Assembly: GCA_021775615.1 (NCBI GenBank)
Contig: JAJFHL010000177.1
Span: forward strand, 1-35,734
Length of the DNA stretch: 35,734 bases
From: Hyphomicrobiales bacterium
GTDB lineage: Bacteria; Pseudomonadota; Alphaproteobacteria; Rhizobiales; JAJFHB01
Direction: 5' to 3'
Every line of letters starts with the position of its first letter. Position 1 is the stretch's first letter. A model generated the notes under the pieces. It ran no database searches, was not told the DNA's origin, and saw nothing but the letters and a program-made list of their open reading frames with translations. Both the position numbers and the translations under genes were made by a program. Below, piece by piece: positions 89 through 26,818 of the stretch.

Positions 89-172
89 TTGAATTTCAAA
101 TCTCGCATTATCTTTATCAACATGTGGAGCAACGGCCTGCATACGGGGCCATTATCAAAAGCAGGAAACATC

Positions 173-907
173 ATGATTAAACTCAGGAAATCCCTCACGG
201 TGAGCTTTGCAGCCGCATTGATGCTCACCACCAGCGCGACGGCATTCGCAGTTCCGTCCGACAACAATTTCCCGATTCCCGGCGTCAACACCGGCATCGA
301 TCAGGTTGTCGAAAATCTCATTCCCGGCAGCGATATCATCGAAGATGAAGATGTGGATGTCGCCGAAATCGACGAGGATGCCGAAGATTTCGATGATGAA
401 GTGTCGGACGAAGAGGACGATGACGACGAAATCGCCGGTATCGATGACGAGGGCGACGACGAAGACGGCGAAGAAGAGGTCGCCGACGAAGACGATGATG
501 ATGCCGATGACAACGAAGAGGACTTCGCCGACTCCGAGGACGAGGATCTCGAAGACGACGTCGCCGAAGCCGACGAAGACGGCGATGATGTTGAAGGCGA
601 TGAAGAGATCGAAGGTATTGCCGAGGGCGACGATGACGAGGCGGACGAGGACGACATCTATGACGTCACCGCGAAGTACGAGTGCGACACCTACAATTGC
701 GGTGGACTGGAGCTGCGCGACGAGGACGGCAACGTTGTCTACTCGAGCGACGTCTACTTTGATCCGGACTTCGCGGAATATGCGACCCCCTCGGAGCTGA
801 CCTTTGCCAACACCCATGTCGGCTGCAAGATTCGCGGCTATTTCGAGCCCATCGAGGGCGCCGATGGCCTCGTTCAGTACAGCTTCTATGTGGAAGAGTT
901 CCTGTAG
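173..907 (+). CDS. Secreted, extremely acidic Asp/Glu-rich protein of unknown function
   Basis: The product is 244 aa from an ATG at 173, preceded by AGGAAA. A longer reading from a TTG at 89 is possible, but that codon abuts the CRP-type site and the ATG gives a clean signal peptide (KLRK, a hydrophobic stretch, then a TAFA cleavage region). Residues about 45-165 are almost all Asp and Glu, with scattered Ala, Val and Gly. The C-terminal 75 residues are more ordinary and hold three cysteines (YECDTYNCGG and HVGCKI). I recognise no family. The acidic tract could bind calcium or other cations outside the cytoplasm, but this is inference. The gene ends one base before the convergent MocR gene, so there is no room for a separate terminator. 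Confidence 0.8.
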   Translation: MIKLRKSLTVSFAAALMLTTSATAFAVPSDNNFPIPGVNTGIDQVVENLIPGSDIIEDEDVDVAEIDEDAEDFDDEVSDEEDDDDEIAGIDDEGDDEDGEEEVADEDDDDADDNEEDFADSEDEDLEDDVAEADEDGDDVEGDEEIEGIAEGDDDEADEDDIYDVTAKYECDTYNCGGLELRDEDGNVVYSSDVYFDPDFAEYATPSELTFANTHVGCKIRGYFEPIEGADGLVQYSFYVEEFL

Positions 908-5574: not shown

Positions 5575-6687
5575 TCAACCACCCAGCATACGGTCGAGGT
5601 AGCTGCGGAACTCCTTAACATAGACCTCGAGCGACGAATGGAGGAAGCCCGGCTCGCTGGCGCCGAAAGCGGCGCCGTCCTGAACCCGTGCGACGATATC
5701 CTTGTCTTCCTCGGTGGCGATGGCGATGGTCTCGCGCACGGCTTCGGCATAGCCGTCCGGATCCTTCATGCCCCGCATCGCAAGCGGTGAGAACGAAAGC
5801 CCCCAGTGGGAATTGGTGCGGTCGATCGCTTCCGGCTCGAGCATCATCCACCAGACGAAGTTGGGATCCACCGCAACGAGCAAATTCGGGTAGACACCGA
5901 TCACATGCAGATAGCTTCGCTCGTTCTCATCAAGGTCCTGATTGTGGATTTCGGGCATGTCGTCTGGACCATATGGGTTGTAGTGCACCGAAAAGTGGTC
6001 GTGGTTCTGCGGTCCCTGTTCGGCGAGGCTGGTCGGATTGGTCGGACCGATGGAACGCTTGTGCGCGTGGGTTACGTGATAGCACTCGACGAAGTTCTCA
6101 AACACCAGTTTCCAGTTGCCGGCCCAAACCTCCTCGTGGAAGGCGTACCGGTCCTCGCAGGCCGACAGATCGTAGTGCACAAGGTGATCGGCCAGGGCGC
6201 CGAGCCGTGAAGCCACGGGTTCCAGATCGCGATTGCGCGACACGAACACGAAGCCAAGCCAGACCTCGCAGCTGAGTTCCTGAAGACCGAGATCCGCCTT
6301 GTCCACGTCGGCAAAGCCTTCACGCTCGCTGACCCCGATCAGCGCGCCGGACATGTCATAGGTCCACGAGTGATAGGGGCATACGATACGTTTGGCGCTG
6401 CCGCATCCGTCCAGCAGTCTGGCATATCGGTGCAGGCAGAAATTGGCGAAGGCCCGGATCGAGCCGTCCTTCTGCCGGACGATGAAGACGGGCCGCCGGC
6501 CGACTTTTGCGGTGAGATAATCGCCGGCGTCCGGCACCGCTCCGGCCCGGGCGATGAACACCCAGTCGCGGTCGAAAATCGCCGCCTGTTCCTCGTCCAG
6601 GAGAGCGGCATCGGTATAAACGCTCTGCGGTGCGGCGCGCAGGCGCTCTTGGTTGCCGCTTGTCGCGCGGCCGGAGTCGATCGTCAT
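5575..6687 (-). CDS. Rieske non-heme iron oxygenase, alpha subunit
   Basis: The 370-aa product starts at the ATG at 6687, overlapping the livM-like stop as ATGA; an ATG further upstream would sit deep inside that gene. The Rieske [2Fe-2S] ligands are Cys84-x-His86 and Cys103-x2-His106 (FCLHRYARLLDGCG...CPYHSWTYD). The mononuclear iron site is NFVECYHVTHAH, with His204 and His208. The residue bridging the two metal centres is Glu201 rather than the Asp of classic aromatic dioxygenases. Glu there is known in carnitine oxygenase CntA, so a quaternary-amine substrate is plausible. No ferredoxin or Rieske reductase lies next to it, so electrons must come from elsewhere. It is the last gene of the Liv-type importer operon, which suggests that it oxidises the imported compound. 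Confidence 0.88.
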   Translation of the reverse strand: MTIDSGRATSGNQERLRAAPQSVYTDAALLDEEQAAIFDRDWVFIARAGAVPDAGDYLTAKVGRRPVFIVRQKDGSIRAFANFCLHRYARLLDGCGSAKRIVCPYHSWTYDMSGALIGVSEREGFADVDKADLGLQELSCEVWLGFVFVSRNRDLEPVASRLGALADHLVHYDLSACEDRYAFHEEVWAGNWKLVFENFVECYHVTHAHKRSIGPTNPTSLAEQGPQNHDHFSVHYNPYGPDDMPEIHNQDLDENERSYLHVIGVYPNLLVAVDPNFVWWMMLEPEAIDRTNSHWGLSFSPLAMRGMKDPDGYAEAVRETIAIATEEDKDIVARVQDGAAFGASEPGFLHSSLEVYVKEFRSYLDRMLGG

Positions 6688-7697
6688 TGCTTGGCCCTCG
6701 TCTTGCGCCAAAGGCGCTGAAAGTTTTCGCGCAGGGATACAATCCCGCTCGGCAGCAGCAGCACGGTCAGCACCACGGCCAGGCCGAGCAGGAGCAGCCG
6801 CATGTTGCCCGCACTGCGCAGCAGCTCGTTGGCGATGGTCACGATGAAGGCGCCCAGCACGGCGCCCGGGAAGCGCCCGATCCCGCCTATGGCCAGCATC
6901 ACCATGGCGAGCAGGAAGAACTCGTTACCGAGGATCTTCGGGGTCACGACGGTCGTGTAATGGGCATAGAGCGCGCCTGCCAGGCCGGTGATGAGCGCCG
7001 AGGACATGAACGCGAGCAATTTGTAACGGAAGTCGCTGACGCCGAGCGAGCGCGCAAAGTCTTCTGAGTCGCGCAATGCGACGAACGCCTTTCCCATGCG
7101 CCGGCGCAGGACAATGAAATAGATGATGTAGATGGCGACAGACGCCACCGCCAGGGTCAGATAGAACCACGCCAGTTTGTCGCGCGGGCCGATTGTGAAC
7201 CCAAAAAGGTCAATCGGCGGAATGCCCAGAAGTCCGGTGTTGCCGCCTGTTCCCCAATGCTTGGTCTTGAGGATCAGGGGCGGCATCGCGAGATGAACCG
7301 CGAAGGTGAAGAGTGCGATGTACTCGCCGCGCAGTCTCAGGCAGGGCAGGGCGATCAGCAGCCCCATGAACCCGGCGAATATGCCGCCAAGCGGGATCGC
7401 GACGATCGGAGACACGCCGAGCTTGGCGGCCAGCATGCCCGAACCGTAGGCGCCGGCGGCGAAGAAGACGAGCTGGGCGTAGTTGTAGATGCCGGCATAT
7501 CCGAGCACCAGATCCCATCCCGCGGCAACGATGGCCCACAGGAAGCACAGGATCAGCACGTGCTGCATGTAGGGGTCGTCCACGAACATGCCGAGCACCG
7601 CGAGACCGCCGACGATTGCCCAGAAGGTCAGGCTGCTGAACGCGGATGGCTGGCGCCTGGTCATCTGGTTCGCCGTTGCGGCGGTCTGGTCTTTCAT
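6684..7697 (-). CDS. livM: Branched-chain amino acid-type ABC permease (LivM-like)
   Basis: This 337-aa polytopic membrane protein belongs to the BPD_transp_2 family. It shows many hydrophobic segments, LGYAGIYNYAQLVFFAAGAYGSGMLAAKLG near residue 70, and the EAA-like loop FVALRDSEDFARSLGVSDFRYKLLAFMSSALITGLAGALYAHY that docks the ATPases. The C-terminus carries NEFFLLAMVMLAIGGIGRFPGAVLGAF, typical of LivM. It pairs with the LivH-like permease 10 nt upstream, and its stop overlaps the Rieske gene start by 4 nt, indicating translational coupling. Substrates of this importer family include amino acids, urea, amides and aromatic acids, so the symbol shows family, not substrate. Confidence 0.9.
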   Translation of the reverse strand: MKDQTAATANQMTRRQPSAFSSLTFWAIVGGLAVLGMFVDDPYMQHVLILCFLWAIVAAGWDLVLGYAGIYNYAQLVFFAAGAYGSGMLAAKLGVSPIVAIPLGGIFAGFMGLLIALPCLRLRGEYIALFTFAVHLAMPPLILKTKHWGTGGNTGLLGIPPIDLFGFTIGPRDKLAWFYLTLAVASVAIYIIYFIVLRRRMGKAFVALRDSEDFARSLGVSDFRYKLLAFMSSALITGLAGALYAHYTTVVTPKILGNEFFLLAMVMLAIGGIGRFPGAVLGAFIVTIANELLRSAGNMRLLLLGLAVVLTVLLLPSGIVSLRENFQRLWRKTRAKQ

Positions 7698-7707
7698 CGG
7701 CTCCGCC

Positions 7708-8580
7708 TTACTTTTCCCATACGCCCATCAGGCCCTGGGGCCGGATCATCAGCACCACGAGCAGGGTGACGAGCCAGATCGGCAATGTCCATGACGCACC
7801 GACATGATGCACCACGAATGCTTCGATCAGGCCCAGTGTGAACGCGGCGATCACCGCGCCTCTCGTGCTGCCCAACCCGCCGAACACGACGATGACGAAC
7901 GCCTTGAGAAAAAGCACCCATCCGCCAAGCGGGGATATCAGGTAGATCGGCGCCAGCAGGAAACCGGCGAGGCCGGTGAGGACCACCGAAAGGCCGAAGG
8001 TGAAGCCGAAGATGATGTTGACGTCGATGCCGACCTGGGCGGCGCCCTGTGTGTCCTGGGAGACAGCGCGCACCGCCTGGCCGAACCGGGTGGTCTGCAG
8101 GAAGATCTCCAGGGCCGCGAGCACCGCAAGGGCGATGCCGAGCACTGCGAGGCGATAGCTGGAAATGATGGCGCCGAAAATGGTCACCGTGCCGTCGATA
8201 AACGCCGGCATCGGCTTGGCAACCGGCCCGAAGATCAGGAGATTCGCATTGTCGAGCACGAAGGCGAGGCCGAGCGTCACCATCATGGTGCTCATTTTCC
8301 AGTCGCGCAGAGACCGCAGAGGCCGCACGACCACCCGTTCAAGGGCGGCGCCCGCCGTGAACAGAATGACGATCAGCAGAGGAACCGCCAGGACGAGGGG
8401 CAGGCCGAGCCCGCCCACGGTGAGAACCCAGGCGACGTATGCACCGGTTGTATAGAGCGAGCCATGCGCGAAATTGAGGATCCGCGCCGTGCCGTAGATG
8501 AGCGACAGGCCAAAGGCCATGATGCAGTAAACCGCTGACTGTGCGATTCCGCCGATGAAGATTTCGATATATTGCTGCAT
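7708..8580 (-). CDS. livH: Branched-chain amino acid-type ABC permease (LivH-like)
   Basis: The 290-aa inner-membrane permease begins MQQYIEIFIGGIAQSAVYCIMAFGLSLIYGTARILNFAHGSLYTTGAYVAW, the hallmark N-terminus of LivH proteins. The central loop RFGQAVRAVSQDTQGAAQVGIDVN and FVIVVFGGLGSTRGAVIAAFTLGLIEAF are also family features. It sits 12 nt after livF and 10 nt before livM in one leftward operon. It should form the translocation pore with the LivM-like subunit. Confidence 0.92.
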   Translation of the reverse strand: MQQYIEIFIGGIAQSAVYCIMAFGLSLIYGTARILNFAHGSLYTTGAYVAWVLTVGGLGLPLVLAVPLLIVILFTAGAALERVVVRPLRSLRDWKMSTMMVTLGLAFVLDNANLLIFGPVAKPMPAFIDGTVTIFGAIISSYRLAVLGIALAVLAALEIFLQTTRFGQAVRAVSQDTQGAAQVGIDVNIIFGFTFGLSVVLTGLAGFLLAPIYLISPLGGWVLFLKAFVIVVFGGLGSTRGAVIAAFTLGLIEAFVVHHVGASWTLPIWLVTLLVVLMIRPQGLMGVWEK

Positions 8581-9259
8581 CGCGGTTCGCCGTCAGCCCG
8601 CCGGTTTCGCGGACTGTGCCGCGTCTTCGGAAATGACGCCTTCTTCAAGCATGTAGATCCGGTCGACCACGCCTTCGATGAGCGCCAGGCTCTGCTCGAC
8701 GAGCAGCACGGTCATGCCGTCTTCCTTCAGTTGGCGAATGGTCTGAAGCATGTTGTCGACCAGGTTGGGCGCCAGCCCGAGCGAGGGTTCGTCGATAGCG
8801 ATGAGGTCGGGTGCGGACATCAGCCCGCGTCCAAGCGCCAGCATTTGCGATTCACCGCCGCTCAGGGTACGCGCCAGCTGCTTCTCGCGTTCGCGAAGCC
8901 GGGGATAAAGCTCGTAAACATGGGCCAGCGTCTTGTCCTGGCGCTCGCGCCCGCGTTTGAGAAACGCGCCGAGCAGAAGGTTCTCTTTCACGGTCATGTC
9001 GGGAAACAGCCGGCGATCCTCCGCCACATACACCAGCCCGCGCTCAACCAGCTGCGGCGCATTGCGGCCACGTGTATTTTCGCCGGCATAGACGATGTCT
9101 CCGTCGGCGGCCGGAACCAGTCCGCAAACGGCTTTCAGAAGGGTGCTCTTGCCGTGTCCGTTGGCGCCGATGACGGCAACCAGTTCACCCTTGCCGACTT
9201 CGAGCGACACCCCGTGCAGGACGTGAAAATCGCCGTAAAACACATTGATGTCGCGGACG

Positions 9260-10027
<768 letters not shown>

Positions 10028-10049
10028 AAGGCGCTCTTCAGAGGCGGCC

Positions 10050-10086
10050 GCGTGGCGGCGGAGCGTGCTGCGCCCCGCCGCCACGC
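10050..10086 (-). promoter_or_regulatory. Intercistronic stem-loop between binding-protein and livG genes
   Basis: A perfect 12-bp GC-rich stem (arms 10050-10061 and 10075-10086, GCGTGGCGGCGG and its complement) with a 13-nt loop fills most of the gap. No T run follows in the leftward direction, so this is more likely a 3' stabilising or processing hairpin than a full terminator. It would favour binding-protein mRNA. Confidence 0.65.
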
Positions 10087-10094
10087 CACGTGGT

Positions 10095-11318
10095 TTATTG
10101 CGCCCAGGACGGGGTGATGAAGTCGCCGATCTTCTTCGTCCCCAGCATGACGGGCTTCAACTGCTTGTCCTGCACCTGTAGCAGAAACGCCGGCTGGGTG
10201 TCGTCGTTGGTCGGGATCATGTAGCGGTCGTTGATGGCGAGCACACCGGTGAGGCCCTTGTGGTTCAGACCCTGAATCGCCTTGTTCACCGCCATGTGGT
10301 CGGATGCGTTGCCGACCTTTTTGACCGCGTCCGCCCACATGTAGACACCGTCGTAAAGAACCGCTGCAATACTCCAGGGCGGGGTTTCGCCATAGGCCGT
10401 GTGCCATTTCTCGACAAAGGCATCGCCCTCGGCGCCGGGAAGCTGGGCGGAAAGCGTCATGCCGAGAACGCCGTCCACATCGCCTTGTTTGACAACCTCA
10501 CCGAAGGCCGGAATGCTGGCGGCATAGCCGGCGTTGATCAGAGCGCCCTTGACCGGGTTCTGGCGGTACTGCTGGATGAAGGTGTTGGTGAGAGACGGAT
10601 CAAGCATCTCGATGTGGATGAGCCCTGGGGCGGCGTTGCGGATCTTGCTCAGGATGCCCGGCCACTGCGCGCTCTCATAAGGCACTTCTTCCTGCAGGAC
10701 GACTTCCCAGCCCGCGGCAACGGCCTTGTCGGCCAGCGCCTGGGTAAGGCCCGCTTCCCATTCGTAGGGACCGTGAACGATTGCGAGTTTCTTGGCCGGG
10801 AACGCATGGCCAAGCGCCGAAATCTGATCGAAGATCACCCGGCCATAGGCCGCCTCGATGTCGGAGATGTTGAAGATGTTGGTGCAGCCCATGCTGTTCA
10901 TCAGATCGACGACGCTGGAGAACGCATCGAGGTGGATGAACGGTACGTCATGCGGGCAGAACGCGGGAATGTCCGGGCCGAAACCACCGTAGCCGGTGAT
11001 GACCATATCCGCCTTGTTTCGGTCGATCAGGTTGGCGGCCGCCGCCTGCAGCTTGTCGGGCGTCAGGTCGCCGATATCGAAGTAGAGAACCTCGAGCTGC
11101 TTGCCGAGCAACCCGCCGTTCTTGTTGATCTCGTCGACCGCGAGCTTGATGGCCTTTTCCATGACGACGCCGTCACTTGCGAACGGGCCCGTCTGGGGAA
11201 CCGGTGCGCCGACCTTGATCGTATCGGCGGATGCGGACCCCACCACAAACAGCGTCAATGCAAAGGCCAGGGCGCCGACGCAACGGCCGATGCCCGAAAG
11301 CCAGGATCTGATGCTCAT
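10095..11318 (-). CDS. Periplasmic binding protein of Liv-type ABC importer
   Basis: The 407-aa protein starts at the ATG at 11318, with GGGAGGAA well placed upstream; a longer reading to 11429 is not supported. It has a signal peptide (GRCVGALAFALTLFVVGSASA) and then DTIKVGAPVPQTGPFASDGVVMEKAIKLAVDEINKNGGLLGKQLEVLYFD, the start of a Peripla_BP_6 amino-acid/urea/amide binding protein. It is the first gene of the leftward importer operon. The proposed LuxR-type box lies about 180 nt upstream. The family covers many substrates. Context with ureohydrolases and a CntA-like oxygenase makes a guanidino or quaternary-amine compound more likely than leucine. Confidence 0.88.
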   Translation of the reverse strand: MSIRSWLSGIGRCVGALAFALTLFVVGSASADTIKVGAPVPQTGPFASDGVVMEKAIKLAVDEINKNGGLLGKQLEVLYFDIGDLTPDKLQAAAANLIDRNKADMVITGYGGFGPDIPAFCPHDVPFIHLDAFSSVVDLMNSMGCTNIFNISDIEAAYGRVIFDQISALGHAFPAKKLAIVHGPYEWEAGLTQALADKAVAAGWEVVLQEEVPYESAQWPGILSKIRNAAPGLIHIEMLDPSLTNTFIQQYRQNPVKGALINAGYAASIPAFGEVVKQGDVDGVLGMTLSAQLPGAEGDAFVEKWHTAYGETPPWSIAAVLYDGVYMWADAVKKVGNASDHMAVNKAIQGLNHKGLTGVLAINDRYMIPTNDDTQPAFLLQVQDKQLKPVMLGTKKIGDFITPSWAQ

Positions 11319-11498
11319 ATTCCAATTCCTCCCGTTGGTTATTGTTATTGCACGCCAAAGGCGCACCGTGTCTGTGGAGGTTGCGACCGTGTCCCAGCCT
11401 CCGAACGAGCCCCCGTGAGAAGCAAGCAACGATCATCATCCCATGCCGATGACCTTTGAGGTTTTACCCAGTTTAAAGTAATGACGAAAACCGAACCG

Positions 11499-11524
11499 GG
11501 AACAATGGTGACGGCAGTTACCAT
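11499..11524. promoter_or_regulatory. LuxR-type operator, copy A
   Basis: The 20-bp palindrome ATGGTGACGGCAGTTACCAT (11505-11524; 8-bp arms with one mismatch, GGCA centre) lies in a 26-bp stretch identical to copy B at 12677-12702. Similarity continues upstream (GAAAACCGA and GAAAAACCGA). It stands about 180 nt before the binding-protein gene. The size and symmetry fit a lux-box. The link to the LuxR protein is inference from position. Confidence 0.75.
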
Positions 11525-11591
11525 AGCATGTCCACGTGTGTTTCGGCGGTCTGACGCCGAAACGCACGGGCAACAGGCAAGCGGGCCTGCA

Positions 11592-12569
11592 TCAGGCGGA
11601 CTTGCCCATGACATTGCCCGCCAGAGCTTCCAGGATCAGCCGAACCGCGAGCCGTGAGGTGATGCCGTCGTGGTCCCAGGACGGTGACACCTCGACCAGA
11701 TCGAGCCCCTGGATCCCCGCTTTCGACAGTTCGCGGATCATCATGATCGCCTCGCGCGATGTAAATCCGCCCGGAGAGGGCACCCCGGTGCCCGGCGCAT
11801 AGGCCGCATCGATACAATCTATGTCGTAGGTGAGATAGAAGCCGTCAGTTCCGTTGTTGGCCACCGCGGCGGCTTTGTCGGCGGCCGCCTTGATCCCCAT
11901 TTCCAGCACTTCTTCCTGGGTGATCAGGGTGATGCCCTGATCCTGAATGTACTTCAGCTCGGATTTCGGGTTCATCCATCCCGATGTGCCGACGATGGCG
12001 ATGTTCTTCGGATTGAAGCCGGCGTCGACGGCGCGCGGGATCGGGCAGCAATGGCTGAGTTCCTCGCCGCCCAGATCGATGGCGGTATCGAAATGCATGT
12101 CGACCAGAACCAGACCGGGGTTCTTGTATTTCTTGGCGAAGGCACGGACGCAGGCGATGGTGATTGAATGGTCGCCGCCGATGGTGATCGGCATGACGCC
12201 GCCGTCCAGGATGGAGGTAACCATGGCTTCGGCCCGGTCCATCGTGGTCACGCCGCTGCCCGGCACCACCGGCACGTCACCGCAGTCGGCCATCTTGTAG
12301 TGATCGTTGAGGTCGAGGCCGTAAGAGGCGTTGTAGAAAGAAAACTGGTCTGACGCGTCTCGGATGGCGCGGGGGCCGTAGTTGGTCCCCGTGCGGCTGA
12401 TGCACATGGCGTCCCAGGGGAAGCCGAGCACCGCGGCGTCGATGTTCTCATCTTTCAGGGCATCCGGACTAGCGGGCATCGCGGGCAGCCGCATGAAGGT
12501 GCCATGTATTCCGGCATGCAACAGGCCGGTGAAGGCATTTTCGTCAAAGGTGGTGGCGCCGCTGCTCAT
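11592..12569 (-). CDS. Ureohydrolase (agmatinase/arginase family) 1
   Basis: The 325-aa enzyme is read from the ATG at 12569 (MSSGATTFDEN), with GGGAGA upstream. Ureohydrolases split a guanidino group into urea and an amine using two Mn (or Ni) ions. The metal motifs are present: GGDHS with His134, DMHFD (Asp157, His159, Asp161) and YDIDCID (Asp249, Asp251). The SHCCPIPRA segment keeps the His that aligns with the catalytic HGT/HGQ of agmatinase and arginase. The substrate could be agmatine, guanidinobutyrate, guanidinopropionate or guanidine; motifs alone cannot decide. It lies alone on the minus strand, divergent from luxR, with the shared palindrome between them. Its downstream neighbour is the importer operon, 273 nt away. 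Confidence 0.88.
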   Translation of the reverse strand: MSSGATTFDENAFTGLLHAGIHGTFMRLPAMPASPDALKDENIDAAVLGFPWDAMCISRTGTNYGPRAIRDASDQFSFYNASYGLDLNDHYKMADCGDVPVVPGSGVTTMDRAEAMVTSILDGGVMPITIGGDHSITIACVRAFAKKYKNPGLVLVDMHFDTAIDLGGEELSHCCPIPRAVDAGFNPKNIAIVGTSGWMNPKSELKYIQDQGITLITQEEVLEMGIKAAADKAAAVANNGTDGFYLTYDIDCIDAAYAPGTGVPSPGGFTSREAIMMIRELSKAGIQGLDLVEVSPSWDHDGITSRLAVRLILEALAGNVMGKSA

Positions 12570-12676
12570 GTTTCGGTCTCCCTGTTTCGTCGTACTGCGG
12601 ACGAGCGATGGTCTTTGTCCTTGCGAGACGCTGCTCGCGGTTTGTCCAGCGGGGAGTAACGCGGAAAAACCGATAC

Positions 12677-12702
12677 GGAACAATGGTGACGGCAGTTACC
12701 AT
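12677..12702. promoter_or_regulatory. LuxR-type operator, copy B (ureohydrolase / luxR divergent promoter)
   Basis: This stretch contains ATGGTGACGGCAGTTACCAT at 12683-12702 and matches copy A over 26 bp. It lies 108 nt from the ureohydrolase start and 68-83 nt from the luxR start, so one site could serve both directions and allow autoregulation. Confidence 0.78.
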
Positions 12703-12769
12703 TGGGCGGCGGGGCCCGATAGCGGCTATTTACCAGCCTTTGCAAAAGGATGGTCAACCGCCGCCGCAG

Positions 12770-13915
12770 ATGTATAGTGTCGCGATGCATGTGGGGTACG
12801 CGGAAAATGCAGGCGCGACTCTCGCGCTTGACTCAACAGAATACAATCTTGCGCTCGCCGAAGTCGTGCAGAACGCGGGCGCGGCGGCCTTTTACCAGAA
12901 TCTTGCGGCACTCCTGGCCCGTCTGACCGGCTGCCGCGACCATCTGGTCATGCGCTACACGCCTTTCGGAAAGCCGTCGTTCCTTGTCAACGAGGCCATG
13001 ACCGATGACAGCGTTCAGCTTTATCTCGACAGTCTCTATGCGCTGGACCCACTCCGGAAACTGACACGGGAAACGCGCCAGCCATGCGTCGTGAGTTTGC
13101 GCTCTCTGGGCGCGGGTGCGCCTGCCGATGAACGCTACATGGTAGAACTTTTCAAGTCGGCATTCATCTTCGATGAACTCGCCATCCTGTTGCCCGCACC
13201 GGGCGGTGTTTCCATCGCCGTGTGCTGCGAACGGCGCTCGGTTCGGTTCCGCCGCGCCGATCGCGGGACTATCGAAAAAATCCTTCCCGTGGTCGCGTCA
13301 CTTCACAAACTGCATGTGGACCGGGCCTTCGCCCAGGCGTCCGCGCGCGGCGACAGCGAATTGGCGGGCGGGCAAAATGCCTTTCTGATCCTCGATCAGT
13401 TTGGACGCGTCGTGCATGAGAGCTCCTATTGGCGGCAACTGGATCTGTCGACGGCCCAGTACCGGAGGCTCCTGAACAGCGCTTCGGGAAACACCCAGGG
13501 CGAGGTCGCCCTGCTGGACGACTTTGTCGCCCACTGGGAGGGCCTTGCCGCGGATTTTCCCCTGGCTCCTGCGGGCAAGATCCTCACAGTCGAATACCGT
13601 GGTGCCGGCGCATTGCAGCTCACGCTGGAGGACGGACTGGAGATCTTTCGCAACCGCTGGAACCTGACCGAGCGCGAAACCGATATCGTGCGTCTGATCC
13701 TGGTGGGATACCCGAATGCGCATATTGCCCGTGATCTCGGTATCGGCGCCGGAACAGTGAGGAACCATCGCCACCGGCTTTACTACAAGCTGGACATCAC
13801 CACGGAGCGGGAACTCTTTTCCATGTTCCTGTCGCAGATTATCGGCAAGGAGATCGCAGCACCAAGCCCCACGACCGAGCCACAAGCCGCCCAACGCGGC
13901 GAAGTCCTGGCCTGA
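12770..13915 (+). CDS. LuxR-family transcriptional regulator
   Basis: The C-terminal 65 residues form a LuxR/FixJ-type helix-turn-helix: NLTERETDIVRLILVGYPNAHIARDLGIGAGTVRNHRHRLYYKLDITTERELFSMFL. The first 300 residues match no domain I can name; they are not a receiver domain and lack an obvious autoinducer-binding pattern, so the ligand is unknown. The start is uncertain: ATG at 12770 (MYSVAMHVG, 381 aa) or ATG at 12785 (376 aa), neither with a strong ribosome site. An open frame to 12608 would include the palindromic operator and is unlikely. The gene is divergent from ureohydrolase 1 and precedes the SnoaL-like gene by 9 nt. It is the natural candidate to bind the palindromes nearby. Confidence 0.85.
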   Translation: MYSVAMHVGYAENAGATLALDSTEYNLALAEVVQNAGAAAFYQNLAALLARLTGCRDHLVMRYTPFGKPSFLVNEAMTDDSVQLYLDSLYALDPLRKLTRETRQPCVVSLRSLGAGAPADERYMVELFKSAFIFDELAILLPAPGGVSIAVCCERRSVRFRRADRGTIEKILPVVASLHKLHVDRAFAQASARGDSELAGGQNAFLILDQFGRVVHESSYWRQLDLSTAQYRRLLNSASGNTQGEVALLDDFVAHWEGLAADFPLAPAGKILTVEYRGAGALQLTLEDGLEIFRNRWNLTERETDIVRLILVGYPNAHIARDLGIGAGTVRNHRHRLYYKLDITTERELFSMFLSQIIGKEIAAPSPTTEPQAAQRGEVLA

Positions 13916-13924
13916 CGGGCGGTT

Positions 13925-14353
13925 ATGTCACTCGAAGCAAACAAGGCGCTGATGCGCCGTTTCTATGAGGAGTTCTGGTGCAGGGGCAATGCGGATGCAG
14001 CTGATGAACTGGTGACGCCGGGCTTTGTCGATCACCAGCTTCCCGACGGTTGGCCACAGGGACGCGATGGCTTCAAGCGGCTGGTTCGTGAGTGGCGCGC
14101 AGGCTTTCCCGACATGCATGAGGACATTGAAGACCTGATCGCCGAGGGCGACAGGGTAACGGGGCGTTTTGTCCTGACTGGCACCCATGAAGGAGCATTC
14201 CTGAACATCGAGCCGACCGGACGCAGGGTGCGGCTGACCGGGATTGATATCGTCCGTGTAGAGGATGGCCGCATCTCCGAGTGGTGGTACAACGAAGACA
14301 CGATGGGTCTGTTGCGGCAACTGGGGCAGTTGCCGCCGGGGAGCCCCTGGTAG
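13925..14353 (+). CDS. SnoaL-like / ester cyclase family protein
   Basis: This 142-aa protein has the SnoaL/NTF2-like cone fold pattern: KALMRRFYEEFWCRGNADAADELVTPGFVDHQLPDGWPQGRDGFKRLVREWRAGFPDMHEDIEDLIAEGDRVTGRFVLTGTHEG, ending in VRVEDGRISEWWYNEDTMGLLRQLG. Family members include polyketide cyclases, isomerases, hydrolases and many proteins with no assigned role. It starts 9 nt after luxR, so the two are co-transcribed. A role in binding or isomerising the pathway compound, or a metabolite sensed by LuxR, is possible but unproven. Confidence 0.82.
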   Translation: MSLEANKALMRRFYEEFWCRGNADAADELVTPGFVDHQLPDGWPQGRDGFKRLVREWRAGFPDMHEDIEDLIAEGDRVTGRFVLTGTHEGAFLNIEPTGRRVRLTGIDIVRVEDGRISEWWYNEDTMGLLRQLGQLPPGSPW

Positions 14354-14370
14354 TGACTGCCGTCATCCTT
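14351..14370. promoter_or_regulatory. Degenerate LuxR-type operator, copy C
   Basis: GTGACTGCCGTCAT at 14353-14366 with its flanks matches the reverse complement of copies A and B at 15 of 20 positions and keeps the central TGCC with TGAC/GTCA arms. It lies about 85 nt before the flavin reductase. Its orientation relative to that gene is the same as copies A and B have to theirs. Confidence 0.5.
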
Positions 14371-14450
14371 CAGACGCTCCGAATGCTCTGATAGGGTCGG
14401 CGCTGAAGTGGAAGGATGGGGGCGAACACACAGGGGTTGGTATCAATCAT

Positions 14451-15167
14451 ATGACTGATCAAAAACATGCAACGCTGCCGGCATGGTCCGGCAACGGCCG
14501 GCGGCGTCTTCTTGTGCTCAGCTCCAGCCCTCGTTCCGACGGCAACTCGCGGGCGCTTTCCGATGCCATGGCCGAGGGCGCGAGAGAGCAGGGGCACGAC
14601 GCGGTCGTCGTCGACCTCAACGACCATGTCACGCATATGCTGCGCGACTGCCGCAAGTGCAGGTCCGGCGAAACCGGCAAATGCACCATCGAGGACACGC
14701 ACGGGCCCCTCTTCTCCGACCTTTATCTGTCGGCGGACGGGGTTGCCTATGCGACCCCGATCTGGTGGTACGGCATGTCCGCCCAGTTGAAGGCTTTTAT
14801 CGACCGGATCTTCTGTTTCATCTCCGACAGCGAGCCCACCGTTGAAGACGTTCTGGCACGGCTTCCCAAGAAACGTGCCGCCCTGATCCTGAGCGCCGAA
14901 GAGAGCAATTTCGCGGCCCGGTTGGCGATCGTGCAGCATATGTCCGAACTCTGCCGCTACCTGCATCACGATTTTGTCGGGGTTGTCACCGGTGTCGGCA
15001 ACAAACGCGGCGAAGTCGCCAGCGATCCCGCCGACCCGCTTGCCGCCGCGAGGCGTCTCGGGGCGCAGTTCTTTGACATTGCGCCAACCGACTACAAACT
15101 CGACACCGACCGGGCGGGAACTGTTTGGGGCCAGGCCAACGGGGAACTGCCGGCAATGTGGAGGTAG
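14451..15167 (+). CDS. NADPH-dependent FMN reductase / flavodoxin-fold oxidoreductase
   Basis: The 238-aa product is read from the ATG at 14451 (MTDQKHATLPAWSG). LLVLSSSPRSDGNSRALSDAMAEGAREQGHDAVVVDLNDH is the FMN phosphate-binding loop of the NADPH_dep_FMN_red / iron-sulfur flavoprotein group. ADGVAYATPIWWYGMSAQLKAFIDRIFCF is the second flavin-contact segment. MLRDCRKCRSGETGKCTIED holds three closely spaced cysteines, as in members that may carry a cluster or disulphide. It could reduce free FMN or a quinone, or supply electrons to a nearby oxygenase. It lies 97 nt after the SnoaL-like gene, with a degenerate LuxR-type box between, and 7 nt before ureohydrolase 2. Confidence 0.85.
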   Translation: MTDQKHATLPAWSGNGRRRLLVLSSSPRSDGNSRALSDAMAEGAREQGHDAVVVDLNDHVTHMLRDCRKCRSGETGKCTIEDTHGPLFSDLYLSADGVAYATPIWWYGMSAQLKAFIDRIFCFISDSEPTVEDVLARLPKKRAALILSAEESNFAARLAIVQHMSELCRYLHHDFVGVVTGVGNKRGEVASDPADPLAAARRLGAQFFDIAPTDYKLDTDRAGTVWGQANGELPAMWR

Positions 15168-15174: not shown

Positions 15175-16245
15175 ATGGGCGGACTGTCGGCGGATAAGCG
15201 CGAAAGACTGAAGGCGCTGGCCAAAGGCGACTTCCTGCAAAGCTCGGATCCGGCCATCGATGCGTTCCTGAAGCGCATGGAGTCCGAGGGCGCGCCGGTT
15301 TTCTCCGACGTCTATAGCGGAGAAATGAGCTTTTACAACGCGCCGCGAAAGTCGGAATTGGCCGACATGGACGTTGCCGTCGTCGGTGTGCCGTTCGAGG
15401 CCAGCGCTCCGGTGCGCGCCGGCACGCGGCTCGGCCCGCGGTCGTTCCGCGAGTGGTCGAAAGTGCGTGGACCCATCCACGATGCCTGGAACACCATTCC
15501 CTTCGATCTGTGCAGTGTTGCCGATCATGGCGACGTTGTCTTCGACAGCCCGCATGACGTGGACGCGTGCATCGCCCGTATCGCCGACGTCTATGCGGGT
15601 TTTCGCGGCGCCGGTGTCGCGCCGCTTTCGGTCGGCGGCGTGCACACCATGACCCATCCCATTCTGAAGGGGCTGGCCGCCGGCGAACCGGTCGGTCTGG
15701 TCCAGATCGATGCCCATGCCGACACCGCGCGCGGCAGCTTCCAGGGCAACCTCCTGAATGATTGCTCGGTGTTCCTCAATGCGGCGCTCGACGAGGCGAT
15801 CGATCCCGAGCGCACGATCCAGATCGGCATTCGAGGATCACTGAGCGCCTATTGGGATTTCTCACGTGAATCCGGCATGCGTGTCATGCCGATGGCCGAA
15901 GTGTACGAAGCGGGTGTCTCCGGCGTTCTTGACGAAATCAGGCGCGTGATCGGTGATGGACCGTTTTACCTGACCCTCGACACCGATGGTATTGACGCGA
16001 CGTATCTGCCCGGGACCCAGTTGCCCGAACCGTTCGGCCTCACCACCCGCGAGGTGCTGCTCATTCTGCGCGGTCTGAGGGGCATGGACATGGTTGGCGC
16101 CGACATCGTCGAGCTTTGCCCGCCCTACGATCCGAACGGCATTTCCGCCAACACCAGCGCGGCGCTGGGATTTGAAATGTTGTGCCTGCTGGCGGAGGCG
16201 CATGTCGGGCGCCACGGCGAGAACCGCAAAACCCATTGGACGTGA
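15175..16245 (+). CDS. Divergent ureohydrolase (agmatinase family) 2
   Basis: The 356-aa protein is read from the ATG at 15175, with GAGG and GGGCGAAG upstream. It has the ureohydrolase fold signatures DAHAD (Asp179, His181, Asp183), LDTDGIDATYLPGTQLPEPFGLT (Asp269, Asp271) and GADIVELCPPYDPNGISANTSAALGFEML. Two normally fixed positions differ. GGDHS is GGVHT (Val156, with ligand His157 kept). The GNLHGQP/HGT segment that carries the catalytic His in arginase and agmatinase reads GNLLNDCS, without His. The metal site looks intact but the acid/base residue is missing or replaced, so substrate or chemistry may differ from ureohydrolase 1. It has an N-terminal extension of about 60 residues. Likely co-transcribed with the flavin reductase. 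Confidence 0.83.
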   Translation: MGGLSADKRERLKALAKGDFLQSSDPAIDAFLKRMESEGAPVFSDVYSGEMSFYNAPRKSELADMDVAVVGVPFEASAPVRAGTRLGPRSFREWSKVRGPIHDAWNTIPFDLCSVADHGDVVFDSPHDVDACIARIADVYAGFRGAGVAPLSVGGVHTMTHPILKGLAAGEPVGLVQIDAHADTARGSFQGNLLNDCSVFLNAALDEAIDPERTIQIGIRGSLSAYWDFSRESGMRVMPMAEVYEAGVSGVLDEIRRVIGDGPFYLTLDTDGIDATYLPGTQLPEPFGLTTREVLLILRGLRGMDMVGADIVELCPPYDPNGISANTSAALGFEMLCLLAEAHVGRHGENRKTHWT

Positions 16246-19118: not shown

Positions 19119-19151
19119 GCCGGGAACGGTTGAGACAGTCCCGGCTATTTT
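19119..19151. terminator. Bidirectional terminator between BVMO and potC-like gene
   Basis: GCCGGGA (19119-19125) pairs with TCCCGGC (19139-19145), followed by TATTTT on the + strand. The hairpin overlaps the stop codon of the convergent permease gene. The + strand T tract is the better one. Confidence 0.6.
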
Positions 19152-19990
19152 CTCTCAGGCTCGTGCAACAGCCAGACCGAGATCACGATCAATACCAGCG
19201 ACACCAGGATGATGAGCGTGCCGACTGCATTGATTTCCGGCGTAATGCCGCGCCTGAGCGTCGACCAGATATACATCGGCAGGGTGTTCTCTCGGCCGGT
19301 CAGGAAGAATGTCACCGGGATTTCGTCGAACGACAGGGTGAAGCAGATCAGAGCGGTGCCGACAATTGCCGCCTTGATATTCGGCAGGGTGACGAAGAAG
19401 AACGTCTGAATCGGGTTGGCCCCGAGGTCGGCTGACGCCTCTTCCATGGAGCGCGGCAGCCTTTGCAGGCGGGCGAAGATCTGGGTGACCGTCACCGCCA
19501 GAAGCGCGGTGGCATGTCCGAGGATCACCGTCTCCAGGCTGAGATTGATGCCCATAATCCGGAACAGGTTGAGCATTGAAATGCCGGTAATGACGCCGGG
19601 CAGGGCGATCGGCATCAAGATCATCCGCCGGAACACGGTCTTTCCCGGAAAGTTGAGCCGGTCGAGGGCGAACGCCGCGGGAATGCCGATCACCAGGGTG
19701 ACCAGAACCGCGAAAGTGGCGACATAGATGGAGTTGCCAATGGCGTTCAACAGATCCGTGTTGTTCGCGACTTTCTCGTACCAATCGAGGGTGAAGCCGG
19801 TGAGCGGCAGGGTGAGGGTGCGGCTGTCATTGAAGCTGAAGACAACCAGCACCGCGATCGGCAGGTAGAGGAACGCCAGTACACAGCACGCCAGCGTGAC
19901 CAGAAAGCCCGAGCCTCCCCGTTCCGAAATCCGGTCGGCGAGTGTGAGTTTCGAGCCGCTCACTGCATCGATGTTTTCAACAACAGCCAT
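19145..19990 (-). CDS. potC: Pot-type ABC permease (PotC/PotI-like)
   Basis: This 281-aa inner-membrane permease shows FSFNDSRTLTLPLTGFTLDWYEKVANNTDLLNAIGNSIYVA near the N-terminus and the EAA loop EASADLGANPIQTFFFVTLPNIKAAIVGTALICFTLSFDEIPVTFFLTG, characteristic of PotC. It is the last gene of the leftward operon, 10 nt after potB. The family imports putrescine, spermidine and related cations, so the symbol marks family rather than proven substrate. Confidence 0.9.
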   Translation of the reverse strand: MAVVENIDAVSGSKLTLADRISERGGSGFLVTLACCVLAFLYLPIAVLVVFSFNDSRTLTLPLTGFTLDWYEKVANNTDLLNAIGNSIYVATFAVLVTLVIGIPAAFALDRLNFPGKTVFRRMILMPIALPGVITGISMLNLFRIMGINLSLETVILGHATALLAVTVTQIFARLQRLPRSMEEASADLGANPIQTFFFVTLPNIKAAIVGTALICFTLSFDEIPVTFFLTGRENTLPMYIWSTLRRGITPEINAVGTLIILVSLVLIVISVWLLHEPERK

Positions 19991-20000
19991 TGGTCAATCC

Positions 20001-20870
20001 TCACGCAATCTCAAGTTTGCCGGACCGCTGCAGCCGGTCGGAGAGGGAAATGATGGTCAAGACGACAACCAGCATTACAATCGAAAGGGCAGCGCCCAGG
20101 GGCCAGTTCAATGCCGCACCGAACTGGGCGGTGATGACGTTGGCGATCATGAAGCCATCCGGTCCGCCGACCAGGATCGGCGCGATGAAGTCGCCGAAGG
20201 TGAGGCAGAACGATATCGTCATGCCCGCCGCAATTCCCGGCGTCGACAGGGGCAGGGTGATCGACCAGAAGGTTCTAAGCGGTCTGACGCCCAGGTCCTT
20301 CGACGCTTCGATCAGGTTGCGCGGGATTTTCTCAAGCGACGCGTAGGCCGGCATCACGATGAACGGCACATAGATATAGGTGAGCGTCAGCACCATGGAG
20401 AACTGGTTGTAGAGGAAGATATCCGTCGGTTTGTCGAGAATTCCGGTCGTCACAAGGAACGAGTTGAGTATGCCCTCGCTGCCAAGAATGGTTTTCCACG
20501 TGTAGGCGCGCAGCAGATAGGACACCCACAAGGGCACGATGACGGCCATGTAGAGCAGGGCACGCATCCGGTTCGACCTGATCTTGAACACCAGGAAATA
20601 GGCGAACGGATAGCCCAGCAACGCGGAGAAGATCGCCACCATGATGGAGATTTTCGCAGTCCGCAGAAGCACCTGGTAGTACTGGGGATCGAGCAGCAGT
20701 TGCGCGTAATTACCGAACTGGAAGGCCGCTTCGAAGGTCGGAAACTTCTTCAGATAGAAGCTGTAGGTGAACATGATCAGATAGGGGATGAACAGGAACA
20801 CCAGCGCCCACAGGAGCGGCGGCGACAGAACCCCTATGGCGGCCAGCCGTTTGCGCGTTTGCAGCCTCAT
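20001..20870 (-). CDS. potB: Pot-type ABC permease (PotB/PotH-like)
   Basis: The 289-aa permease has a hydrophobic start (LLWALVFLFIPYLIMFTYSFYLKKFPTFEAAFQFGNYAQLLLDPQYYQVLLRTAKIS), the YLLRAYTWKTILGSEGILNSFL segment typical of PotB, and the coupling loop EASKDLGVRPLRTFWSITLPLSTPGIAAGMTISFCLTFGDFIAPILVGG. Its start overlaps the potA stop by 4 nt (ATGA), indicating coupled translation. Confidence 0.92.
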   Translation of the reverse strand: MRLQTRKRLAAIGVLSPPLLWALVFLFIPYLIMFTYSFYLKKFPTFEAAFQFGNYAQLLLDPQYYQVLLRTAKISIMVAIFSALLGYPFAYFLVFKIRSNRMRALLYMAVIVPLWVSYLLRAYTWKTILGSEGILNSFLVTTGILDKPTDIFLYNQFSMVLTLTYIYVPFIVMPAYASLEKIPRNLIEASKDLGVRPLRTFWSITLPLSTPGIAAGMTISFCLTFGDFIAPILVGGPDGFMIANVITAQFGAALNWPLGAALSIVMLVVVLTIISLSDRLQRSGKLEIA

Positions 20871-21973
20871 CGTGCTGCCTCATCCGCGAAGGTGTTGACG
20901 TTCGCCGGGTCCACCGCGACGGTCACCGCCGTGCCCCGCACCGGCAGGTCCGACTGGGCCGCCGTATTCGGTAGCATGAGGTCGACCATGAACGTGTCGC
21001 CGGAAGCGAGATCGACCGTCACCCGGGCGCTGTTGCCGTGAAACAGGGTCTCGCCCACGGTGCCTTTCAGGAGATTGGCCTTGGCATCGGATTTCTTGCC
21101 CGCCAGCAGTCGTGCTTTTTCCGGGCGGATCGTCATGCAGATCGCATCGCCGTCCGCATAGGCGGCACCGTTGCGCACCGCTTTGAGATGATCGGCGCCG
21201 TAATTGATGGTGATGTCTTTCGCGCCGCTGGCGGCAACATGGCCGCGCAGCACGTTTGAAGTGCCGATGAAACTTGCCACATAGGTGCTCGATGGGTGGT
21301 CGTAGAGTTCGGCCGGCGTGCCGCTCTGGGCAACCCTGCCGGCTTCCATCACCACCACCCGGTCCGACATCACAAGGGCTTCGGTCTGGTCATGGGTGAC
21401 CATGACGAATGTCAGACCGAGCCGCTGGTGCAGGTGGCGCAGCTCGACCCGCATGGCTTCGCGCAGGTTGGCGTCGAGAGCGGAGAGGGGCTCGTCGAGA
21501 AGCAACACCTGCGGCTCGCGGATGATCGCCCGGGTCAGCGCCACCCGCTGGCGCTCGCCTCCGGAAAGCTCATGCGGCTGCCGTTCGCCCTTGTCGCTCA
21601 TCTCGACAAGGTCGAGCGCCTTGCGGACCTTGTCGGCGATTTCGGCTTTCGGCATGCCGGCAATGCGCAGGCCGTATCCGACATTCTGCGACACGGTCAT
21701 GTGCGGAAACAGCGCGTAGTCCTGAAACACCATGTTGACCTGACGCCGATAGGGCGGCAGCTCGGTCACGTTCTGTCCGGCGAGGTAGATCGAACCTGCA
21801 TCTGGGCTCTCGAAGCCGGCCACCGTGCGCAGCACCGTTGTCTTGCCGCAGCCAGATGGCCCGAGCAGCGTGACGTACTCGCCCTCTTCGATGTCCAGGC
21901 TGACATCGTCCACCGCGACCACGCCGCCGGGGAAGGTCTTCCTCAATCTGTCCAGTTGAATAATGCTGCCCAT
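20867..21973 (-). CDS. potA: Pot-type ABC importer ATPase (PotA-like)
   Basis: The 368-aa ATPase is read from the ATG at 21973 (MGSIIQLDRLRKTF), with AAGGTG upstream; a longer frame to 22021 crosses the terminator and is not supported. Walker A is GPSGCGKTT, the Q-loop is VFQDYALFPHMTV, the signature is LSGGERQRVALTRAI, Walker B is VLLLDEPLSALD and the switch His lies in VTHDQTEA; all are canonical. A TOBE-type regulatory domain fills residues about 240-368 (MTIRPEKARLL...GTVGETLFHGNSARVTVDL). It energises import by PotB and PotC, and lies downstream of the binding protein across an intrinsic terminator. Confidence 0.93.
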   Translation of the reverse strand: MGSIIQLDRLRKTFPGGVVAVDDVSLDIEEGEYVTLLGPSGCGKTTVLRTVAGFESPDAGSIYLAGQNVTELPPYRRQVNMVFQDYALFPHMTVSQNVGYGLRIAGMPKAEIADKVRKALDLVEMSDKGERQPHELSGGERQRVALTRAIIREPQVLLLDEPLSALDANLREAMRVELRHLHQRLGLTFVMVTHDQTEALVMSDRVVVMEAGRVAQSGTPAELYDHPSSTYVASFIGTSNVLRGHVAASGAKDITINYGADHLKAVRNGAAYADGDAICMTIRPEKARLLAGKKSDAKANLLKGTVGETLFHGNSARVTVDLASGDTFMVDLMLPNTAAQSDLPVRGTAVTVAVDPANVNTFADEAAR

Positions 21974-21992
21974 GGCGTTCAAGTCACCTTTT

Positions 21993-22042
21993 GATCGAAA
22001 AAGTGGTGCCGGACGGGGCACTAAGGCCTTCCGTCCGGCACC
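21993..22042 (-). terminator. Intercistronic terminator between potD- and potA-like genes
   Basis: A perfect 12-bp stem (GGTGCCGGACGG at 22005-22016 with CCGTCCGGCACC at 22031-22042) and a 14-nt loop are followed, in the leftward direction of transcription, by ACTTTTTCG. This is a complete intrinsic terminator placed 11 nt after the potD stop. Partial read-through would give more binding protein than transporter. Confidence 0.82.
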
Positions 22043-22052
22043 CTCGGGAGTG

Positions 22053-23123
22053 TTAGTTGGCGGACTTAACCGCGTTCCAGGCGTTGGTGTAATGCTCGAG
22101 CCGTGCGCCGAGATTCACCCACAGGAGCAGGCTGTCCAGATAGTCCGGATCGTCCTGGTGCAGTTTGGTGAACTGCTCTGGGGACATGCACTTCTTGGCC
22201 GCCACCGGGTTGGACGAGGAGTATCCATTGTAGTTGGACATGCCGCACTGGCCGTGCTCGGAAATCGCCATGTTGAGGAACTTGTAGACGCATTCCGTGT
22301 TGGCGGTGCCCTTGACGACCATCCAGGAGTCCATCCAGCCTTCCGCGCCTTCTTCGGGAATGAACTCCTTGACCGGAATGTTCTTCTCGGCCAGCAGGTT
22401 CGACTGATAGCCGCCCCATGTGTTGGAGATCCACACCTCGCCACCGGCATAGAGGTCGACCAGTTCGCCGGCGGTCGACCAGTATTTGCGGACCAGCGGT
22501 TTCTGCTCGATCAGCTTGGCCTTTGCCGCGTCCAACTCGGTATCATTCAGTTCGTAGATGTTCATCGTGCCCATGACGCGGGCCGCGACATAGAGCGAAC
22601 TCTTGTCGTCCCAAAGCGAGATCTTGCCCTTGTATTTCGGATCCCAAAGAGCTTTCAGCGATGTCGGCGCATCGGCTTCTGAGATCTTGTCGGTCCGGTA
22701 CATGAACGGGATCGATCCCCACGAGAATGGAACGCCATAGACCTTGCCGTCGTGGTTGATGCCATCGGCCGTGCTGAATTTCTCGTAGATTTCACTGAAG
22801 CGCGGAACCTTCGACGTATCGATTTCTTCGACGAAGCCGGCTTCGATCATGATCTTGGTGGTATCGATGGACGGCGAGATCATGTCGTAGACGCCGCCGC
22901 CGGCAGCAAGCTTCGGCGCGAAATCGTCGTTCGATCCGACATAGGTGGCGGAGACTTCACAGCCGGACTCTTCTTCGAACTGTTTGACGAAGCTGTCATC
23001 CGCATAACCTTCCCAGGTCAGCAGATTGACCTGGCCGGCGCTCCACGCGCTGGAGGCAAAAATGCAGCTTGCAGCGGTCATCGCCACTGTCGATTTAAGA
23101 AGTTTTTTCACGCGATTACTCAT
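22053..23123 (-). CDS. potD: Periplasmic binding protein, spermidine/putrescine (PotD/PotF) type
   Basis: This 356-aa exported protein has a signal peptide (LLKSTVAMTAASCIFASSAWSA) and the PotD-type start GQVNLLTWEGYADDSFVKQFEEESGCEVSATYVGSNDDFAPKLAAGGGVYDMISPS. GVPFSWGSIPFMYRTDKI and EVWISNTWGGYQSNLLAEKNIPVKEFIPEEGAEGWMDSWMVVKG are further family segments. A strong GGGAGA ribosome site precedes the ATG at 23123. It is first of the pot genes and 136 nt after the sigma-54 activator. I found no good sigma-54 promoter in that gap, so it is either read through from the ligase operon or has an unseen sigma-70 promoter. Confidence 0.9.
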   Translation of the reverse strand: MSNRVKKLLKSTVAMTAASCIFASSAWSAGQVNLLTWEGYADDSFVKQFEEESGCEVSATYVGSNDDFAPKLAAGGGVYDMISPSIDTTKIMIEAGFVEEIDTSKVPRFSEIYEKFSTADGINHDGKVYGVPFSWGSIPFMYRTDKISEADAPTSLKALWDPKYKGKISLWDDKSSLYVAARVMGTMNIYELNDTELDAAKAKLIEQKPLVRKYWSTAGELVDLYAGGEVWISNTWGGYQSNLLAEKNIPVKEFIPEEGAEGWMDSWMVVKGTANTECVYKFLNMAISEHGQCGMSNYNGYSSSNPVAAKKCMSPEQFTKLHQDDPDYLDSLLLWVNLGARLEHYTNAWNAVKSAN

Positions 23124-23259
23124 TTCATTTTCTCCCTTTTCAAGAGTTGCGTCCGCTGCCTTGTGGCATGCTTTCTTTTCGCTCTTGCCCCGTTGGAAAC
23201 CACCCCTTGCCTATGCAGACGCTGAACAATAGACCCGGCACCCCGCGGTTTCGGTTGGA

Positions 23260-25903: not shown

Positions 25904-25931
25904 CAAGCGCCTGTCTTGCTCCCTCTCAAAA

Positions 25932-26792: not shown

Positions 26793-26818
26793 TGTCCTGA
26801 TATCTCCTCAAGCGGTTG

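Follow-up and report, generated by a model that had tools for sequence, protein, structure and literature searches.

A palindromic box as the probable operator of a LuxR-type regulator beside importer and ureohydrolase genes in a Hyphomicrobiales bacterium

Which protein reads a 20-bp palindrome that stands before three sets of catabolic and transport genes, and what does it do there? The question arises from a stretch of 35,734 nucleotides of a Hyphomicrobiales bacterium (assembly GCA_021775615.1, contig JAJFHL010000177.1), hereafter the window, which is contig C87 of the genome that we call G000 (6.26 Mb, 392 contigs, 96.65% complete). A preliminary description of the window had proposed a LuxR regulon marked by the palindrome. 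Our analysis supports this proposal well, since the box recurs beside LuxR homologues whose neighbouring genes differ. Judged from sequence comparison, the palindrome very probably serves as operator for the LuxR-type product of the gene at 12785-13915, and this protein would be a local activator of a regulon for the uptake and hydrolysis of guanidino or amide compounds.

A rare palindrome before three sets of genes

The palindrome ATGGTGACGGCAGTTACCAT occurs exactly at two places (operators 1 and 2, Table 1), whereas none of 100 dinucleotide shuffles held two matches and none was expected. The scan and the shuffles thus confirm the two copies first described, which have 26 identical bases in common; past the 20-mer, read along the target strand, they agree at 19 of the next 33 positions, six of these 19 lying within the 26. 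Eight of ten dyad pairs are kept in the 20-mer, and when it is extended to 24 bases, 10 of 12 are kept in operator 2, 9 of 12 in operator 1 and 5 of 12 in the third copy. The degenerate third copy (operator 3) stands with the 15 of 20 matches described for it, but in the register 14350-14369; at 14351-14370, where it had been placed, just 6 of 20 bases match. The inner ACTGCCGTCA is common to all three copies, each read towards its target gene, so the same orientation to the target, as originally noted, holds. The promoter positions hold as well, with gaps of 186 bp to the livK start, 113 bp to the ureohydrolase 1 start, 82 bp to the luxR start used here and 81 bp to the flavin reductase gene.

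The three operators are the best-scoring places of the window (26.2, 26.2 and 10.1 bits), and a second match with five mismatches lies at 17307, inside a dehydrogenase gene. Operator 3 is supported by a 16.9-bit box in another locus, L011, at the same place over the stop codon of the SnoaL gene. Scatter of the palindrome over the genome, named in the preliminary description as an outcome that would tell against a regulon, was looked for in G000 and not found: three places lie within three mismatches, and the sole one outside the window sits in a 313-amino-acid (aa) open reading frame (ORF), where it reads in frame MVTAITM. A 17-base degenerate core, designed by hand to fit all three copies, has four places with zero mismatches in 6.26 Mb, namely the three operators and one (contig C381) inside a long ORF that by our own reading resembles a peptide-synthetase gene; with at most one mismatch it gives 20 rows (14 of them one-mismatch) versus 9 for a reversed control pattern. 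As this core is circular for the three operators, it is informative only in how few other places it matches. On their own the outer 12 bases occur widely, with 53 places in G000 when one mismatch is allowed and perfect matches in 172 of the 297 genomes of the order, and are not diagnostic; recognition of a site calls for the inner bases and the promoter position as well.

Recurrence of the box beside LuxR homologues

Homologue loci were chosen by LuxR similarity alone. Counting G000 itself, homologues were found in 3 of 4 genomes of the family, in 13 of 297 of the order and, in the class, in 2 of 385 at E 1e-40 and 4 of 385 with a profile. Plasmid records gave 172 matches, of which 14 were used (H1-H8, H12-H16, H19). 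A whole-collection scan for LuxR relatives returned one locus, L011, so the comparison rests on the genome searches and the plasmid records.

We enumerated de novo every 6-base half-site at spacers 0-14 (61,440 patterns) over 21 loci, the window being excluded and one locus (L026) being a second LuxR locus of G000. ATGGTG-N8-CACCAT ranked first, present in 10 of the 21 loci versus 4 for the runner-up; without the near relatives L044 and L036 the counts were 8 of 19 versus 4, and the pair was found at spacer 8 only. Leave-one-out matrices were then scanned within 2.5 kb of luxR in 33 loci, with 300 column-permuted palindromic matrices as control. At a threshold of at least 16 bits, 19 of the 33 loci carried a match, against a permuted mean of 0.19 and a maximum of 2. 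The other thresholds gave 21 loci at 12 bits (permuted mean 1.57, maximum 21), 19 at 14 bits (0.56, 8), 12 at 18 bits (0.08, 2) and 10 at 20 bits (0.02, 1). Markov resampling of each locus (200 each) yielded p≤0.05 in 23 of 33. While the LuxR homologue is the common element of the site-bearing loci by selection, these otherwise differ, carrying amidases, SDR/FMO enzymes, an amino-acid permease, and polyamine-type or Liv-type importers. The gap between luxR and an amidase gene holds a box of 17.4 bits in L051 and 16.0 bits in L052, the gene behind luxR being unannotated in L051. On a tree of 19 aligned homologues (L011, L036, L037 and L050-L061 left out, midpoint root for drawing), the operator is found in all five members of the window's group (support 84/92) and in the other main branch too.

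The second LuxR homologue of the family in G000 (contig C222, L026) has its own near-perfect box at 5456. Loci L039 (388-2489) and L040 (6860-9072) each show two LuxR homologues of the family in tandem, with one box before the first. In L011, luxR (1610-2257) is 5'-truncated with an in-frame stop and adjoins a DUF1989 (PF09347) gene, and the gene behind the box of the third type differs from the window's, being RraA-like by our own reading.

The search of related genomes upstream of orthologues, suggested in the preliminary description, also speaks for the regulon. Ureohydrolase 1 was found at eight loci including the window (six places in 5 of 297 order genomes, plus 2 of 72,556 plasmid records); among 298 class genomes the search returned the window itself only. 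Six of the eight carry the operator 72-116 bp before the start, at 113 bp in the window, 116 bp in G002, 72 bp in G480-C11, about 86 bp in G534, 94 bp in Sulfitobacter dubius and 97 bp in Paracoccus seriniphilus, all gaps except the window's being calculated by hand. The P. seriniphilus enzyme shows 48% identity, and about 7.6 kb separate its box from luxR. When four of these promoters were aligned (window, G002, G480, S. dubius), the operator was the sole long conserved block: the box is conserved between species and its flanks are not. A natural control is provided by G003, a genome of the same genus, whose ureohydrolase 1 is 88% identical and directly follows potI; the operator is missing there, and so is luxR from the 4-kb locus. 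This genome (assembly 61% complete) gave no LuxR homologue at E 1e-20.

The potI in question belongs to a potFGHI-like importer (L063, contig C35 of G003, ureohydrolase 1 at 1498-2472), a neighbourhood pointing to a polyamine- or guanidino-type substrate. G002 has a second perfect box, ATGGTGGCTCTGGTCACCAT (L024, 16282-16301), before potF, which may make the pot importer a regulon member in that genome; none of the three best-scoring boxes of the window stands before potF.

Promoter geometry and competing explanations

We analysed -10 positions in 35 box/gene pairs, chosen with their directions by hand and falling into 27 groups of related sequences. TATAAT-like hexamers peak exactly 22 bp past the box, with a mean score of 3.62 against a profile mean of 1.85 (sd 0.36). 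None of 1000 rotations reached this value (largest 3.05), and without the window's sites the peak is still at 22 bp (3.49); several pairs score 0-1 there. Were the hexamer a -10 element, the centre of the box would fall near -44.5 and cover the -35 region, the arrangement of class II activators. We infer that a LuxR dimer would bind dyads of the type CAATGGTG-N8-CACCATTG whose centre lies some 44 bp upstream of the start point. Acting from the two exact sites as a class II activator, it would switch on the Liv importer/Rieske operon and ureohydrolase 1, and probably its own gene luxR too; since operator 2 faces luxR as well as ureohydrolase 1, such autoregulation is likely. The unit of flavin reductase and ureohydrolase 2 would be activated more weakly and less surely. 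The ligand would probably be an imported guanidino- or amide-type compound or its product, not an acyl-homoserine lactone (AHL).

A number of observations weigh against this reading. Operator 3 is weak, its score lying below the 16 bits used for other loci. The window's own -10-like hexamers are poor (4.0-5.5 of 8.5), and a sigma-70 consensus scan found nothing at the predicted -10 places of the window; its candidate before luxR lies at 12751-12778, and it found two in all versus 0.9 expected. As to the comparison of loci, 16 bits is one of five thresholds tried, and at 12 bits one permuted matrix also reaches 21 loci. Ten of the 33 loci are without a significant box (L032, L033, L043, L035, L036, L028, L054, L056, L059, L061). 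The 33 are not independent, several being orthologous operons (close sets are L050-L053 with L055, L037 with L044, and L058 with L060), and the sites of the initial matrix were chosen by inspecting loci, each locus being excluded from its own test. Two of the ten loci with the top-ranked pattern, L035 and L036, carry the perfect box inside a 731-aa ORF, where it may be coincidental, and in L051 and L052 the top match lies about 2.2 kb from luxR. On the tree, presence and absence of the box need five changes, which 100 of 500 label shuffles equal, so its presence is not strongly clustered. L011 keeps its box at the SnoaL stop despite the truncated, stop-bearing luxR, a relative of ureohydrolase 1 (G480-C5) is without a box though a LuxR homologue lies about 5 kb away, with a box at its own 3' side, and the similar box at C222 makes cross-recognition or paralogous regulons possible.

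The LuxR protein might instead bind the palindrome and act mainly as a ligand-released repressor, which we think unlikely. The divergent layout and the want of a consensus core promoter at the predicted places would suit repression, and a box covering the -35 region could equally obstruct RNA polymerase, but the fixed 22 bp to a -10-like hexamer puts the box there in class II style. It is decidedly improbable that another regulator binds the box and LuxR is a bystander. The window does encode other regulators, a MocR/GntR protein at 909-2384 and a sigma-54 activator at 23260-24747, a further one could be encoded elsewhere, and LuxR binding is a prediction; the box, however, was recovered in loci chosen solely by LuxR homology, with neighbours that mostly differ.

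The domains of the protein bear on a further explanation, in which the box would be a genuine lux box and the protein would be an AHL quorum-sensing receptor or an AHL-responding solo. PF00196 (GerE) is the sole domain above its cut-off in the window LuxR (E 1.4e-11, 44.3 bits versus 23.5) and matches 19 of 19 family members (E 10 limit). The autoinducer-binding domain PF03472 gave no match for the window protein at a limit of E 10, where HMMER filters discard the bulk of hits above about 0.1; 2 of the 19 family members match it, weakly (best E 0.0025). Positions 14-179 of the family profile match residues 11-182 of the PDB 5XHX chain (E 3.2e-11); with the single window sequence, 5XHX was not among the matches at E 0.01. 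A single-sequence AlphaFold model of the protein had a mean predicted local distance difference test score of 36, unusable for fold comparison. A passage of PMC9144697 identifies 5XHX as the sensor domain of VqsR of Pseudomonas aeruginosa, to which the sensor domain of the window's family is, on the profile match, distantly homologous.

VqsR is a LuxR homologue that belongs to the quorum network of P. aeruginosa, and the kinship with it speaks for the AHL explanation, as do the GerE helix-turn-helix and the 20-bp dyad near luxR, whose length and symmetry fit a lux box as the preliminary description had said; the half-site does not. The lux box has the signature CT-N12-AG, and the window's box reads GG-N12-CC at these positions. 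Moreover, the luxI family (PF00765) has no match in G000, the positive control being found on a Mesorhizobium plasmid, and the window protein has 376 aa from the start used here, outside the 230-270 aa that a passage of PMC10134790 gives for AHL-type LuxRs with pfam03472. With no PF03472 match, no luxI found and a different half-site, kinship with quorum sensing is not supported, and with its length added the protein is not classed as a quorum-sensing LuxR or LuxR solo. On these four grounds we rejected the lux-box reading, and an AHL receptor is very improbable.

A chance or mobile-element repeat, or an RNA hairpin or terminator, is scarcely credible: the symmetry permits a hairpin and the stop codon of ureohydrolase 1 precedes copy 1 by 67 bp, but the two exact copies with their long identity are the only ones in the genome, a listing of terminator-like sequences in 11200-14600 does not contain the palindrome, copy 2 stands between two divergent genes, and the conservation of the box alone across species contradicts such readings and led us to reject a terminator or mobile repeat. 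A riboswitch was considered as well, and no Rfam family was found in the window at gathering thresholds.

Gene setting, substrate and known systems

Table 1. Positions of the box copies, the -10-like hexamers and the surrounding genes in the window
Feature	Positions	Strand	Remarks
Rieske oxygenase	5575..6711	-	PF00355 and PF00848; end of importer operon, ORF overlaps livM
livG, livF, livH, livM importer genes	6684..10084	-	ORFs; match annotated transporter genes of Sulfitobacter dubius
LivK-like periplasmic binding protein of importer	10095..11318	-	PF13458
-10-like hexamer ATTACT	11477..11482	-	22 bp past operator 1; weak, 4.0 of 8.5
Operator 1 (predicted)	11503..11526, core 11505-11524	-	upstream of Liv-type importer operon
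Ureohydrolase 1, arginase family	11592..12569	-	nearest structures guanidine hydrolases
-10-like hexamer GTTACT	12655..12660	-	22 bp past operator 2 towards ureohydrolase 1; weak, 4.0 of 8.5
Operator 2 (predicted)	12681..12704, core 12683-12702	.	divergent ureohydrolase 1/luxR promoter; 24-bp dyad CAATGGTGACGGCAGTTACCATTG
LuxR-type regulator, 376 aa	12785..13915	+	PF00196; VqsR-like N-terminal sensor region, middle region, GerE helix-turn-helix
SnoaL-like protein, downstream of luxR	13925..14353	+	PF07366
Operator 3 (predicted), degenerate	14350..14369	+	5 mismatches; overlaps SnoaL stop codon
-10-like hexamer TAGGGT	14392..14397	+	22 bp past operator 3; weak, 5.5 of 8.5
Flavodoxin-like/FMN reductase, first gene past operator 3	14451..15167	+	PF02525, PF03358
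Ureohydrolase 2	15175..16245	+	nearest structure a 3-guanidinopropionase

All five liv genes, livK included, match transporter-annotated genes of the S. dubius locus, and ureohydrolase 2 is followed on the plus strand by an alcohol dehydrogenase and then a flavin monooxygenase. Substrate assignment was tried through the nearest solved structures only. For ureohydrolase 1 these are metformin hydrolase A as well as 7ESR/7OI1 and 9FEK, the latter identified as guanidine hydrolases in passages of PMC11410670; for ureohydrolase 2 it is the 3-guanidinopropionase 3nip. At most, this makes a guanidino or amide compound a fair guess for the substrate. At the position where arginase-family enzymes usually have GGDHS, ureohydrolase 2 has GGVHT, which may mean an unusual substrate or activity.

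Further along the window, 19145-29686 holds a pot-like importer, the sigma-54 activator, a PAS protein, a dioxygenase-like gene and two glutamine-synthetase-like genes, named mostly by our own reading. In G002, ureohydrolase 1, luxR, pot, sigma-54 activator and PAS genes follow one another in contiguous order, and in the window about 5 kb of other genes separates luxR from pot. On the S. dubius plasmid (L041, 14491-20975), a cluster of dihydropyrimidinase, N-carbamoyl-amino-acid hydrolase and TRAP importer genes lies beside liv-speB-luxR, past an insertion sequence. The start of the window (89-907) encodes a 272-aa ORF with a very long aspartate/glutamate-rich stretch.

Ureohydrolase 1 thus finds its nearest solved structures in the guanidine/metformin hydrolase branch (7OI1/7ESR, 9FEK, 8SNF), and we know of no importer, Rieske oxygenase or LuxR control as part of those systems. 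VqsR, whose sensor the family resembles, has a GerE helix-turn-helix, and its published site is said to be an inverted repeat with an 8-base spacer, TCGCC-N8-GGCGA. In the window LuxR, some 110 residues separate the matched sensor region from the helix-turn-helix. The protein differs from VqsR in the half-site and in standing beside catabolic and importer genes rather than quorum-sensing targets, VqsR being described, in a passage of PMC4286720, as a LuxR homologue that acts on quorum sensing and qscR.

A closer parallel in gene setting is PipR of Pseudomonas sp. GM79. Passages of PMC4981722 describe it as a LuxR homologue with an ABC importer and peptidases on its flanks, which activates a flanking hydrolase gene on imported peptides or plant compounds, not AHLs, with an OryR-like inverted repeat centred 71.5 bp before the start codon of the activated gene. 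PipR/OryR-type solos and the window alike have a LuxR homologue beside importer and hydrolase genes; the operator sequence and the genes differ, and the domain PF03472, by which LuxR solos are defined in a passage of PMC10134790, was not found in the window protein. By its gene layout, the window LuxR would probably work like PipR, as a local regulator responding to an imported compound.

Among the matches listed, no description of the operator or regulon was found in the open-licence literature by operator letters or gene setting. LuxR-type local activators are known; this LuxR family, its operator and the shared promoter geometry look like a new form of them. The records opened annotate the family as 'helix-turn-helix transcriptional regulator', 'LuxR C-terminal-related transcriptional regulator' or 'hypothetical protein'. 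We give even chances to a wider proposal, that an undescribed alphaproteobacterial LuxR family, with a VqsR-like sensor, an extra middle region and a GerE helix-turn-helix, reads CAATGGTG-N8-CACCATTG at a fixed class II position, its sensor serving for nitrogenous substrates (guanidino, amide or polyamine-type) and not for cell-to-cell signals. If true, this would hint at the kind of ligand that VqsR itself may bind. The box also supplies a testable operator and position rule for these generically annotated LuxR proteins and separates them from quorum sensing, for which 'LuxR' often serves as shorthand. Regulons in several families become predictable from sequence by this rule, the importer and hydrolase genes under the boxes pointing to candidate ligands.

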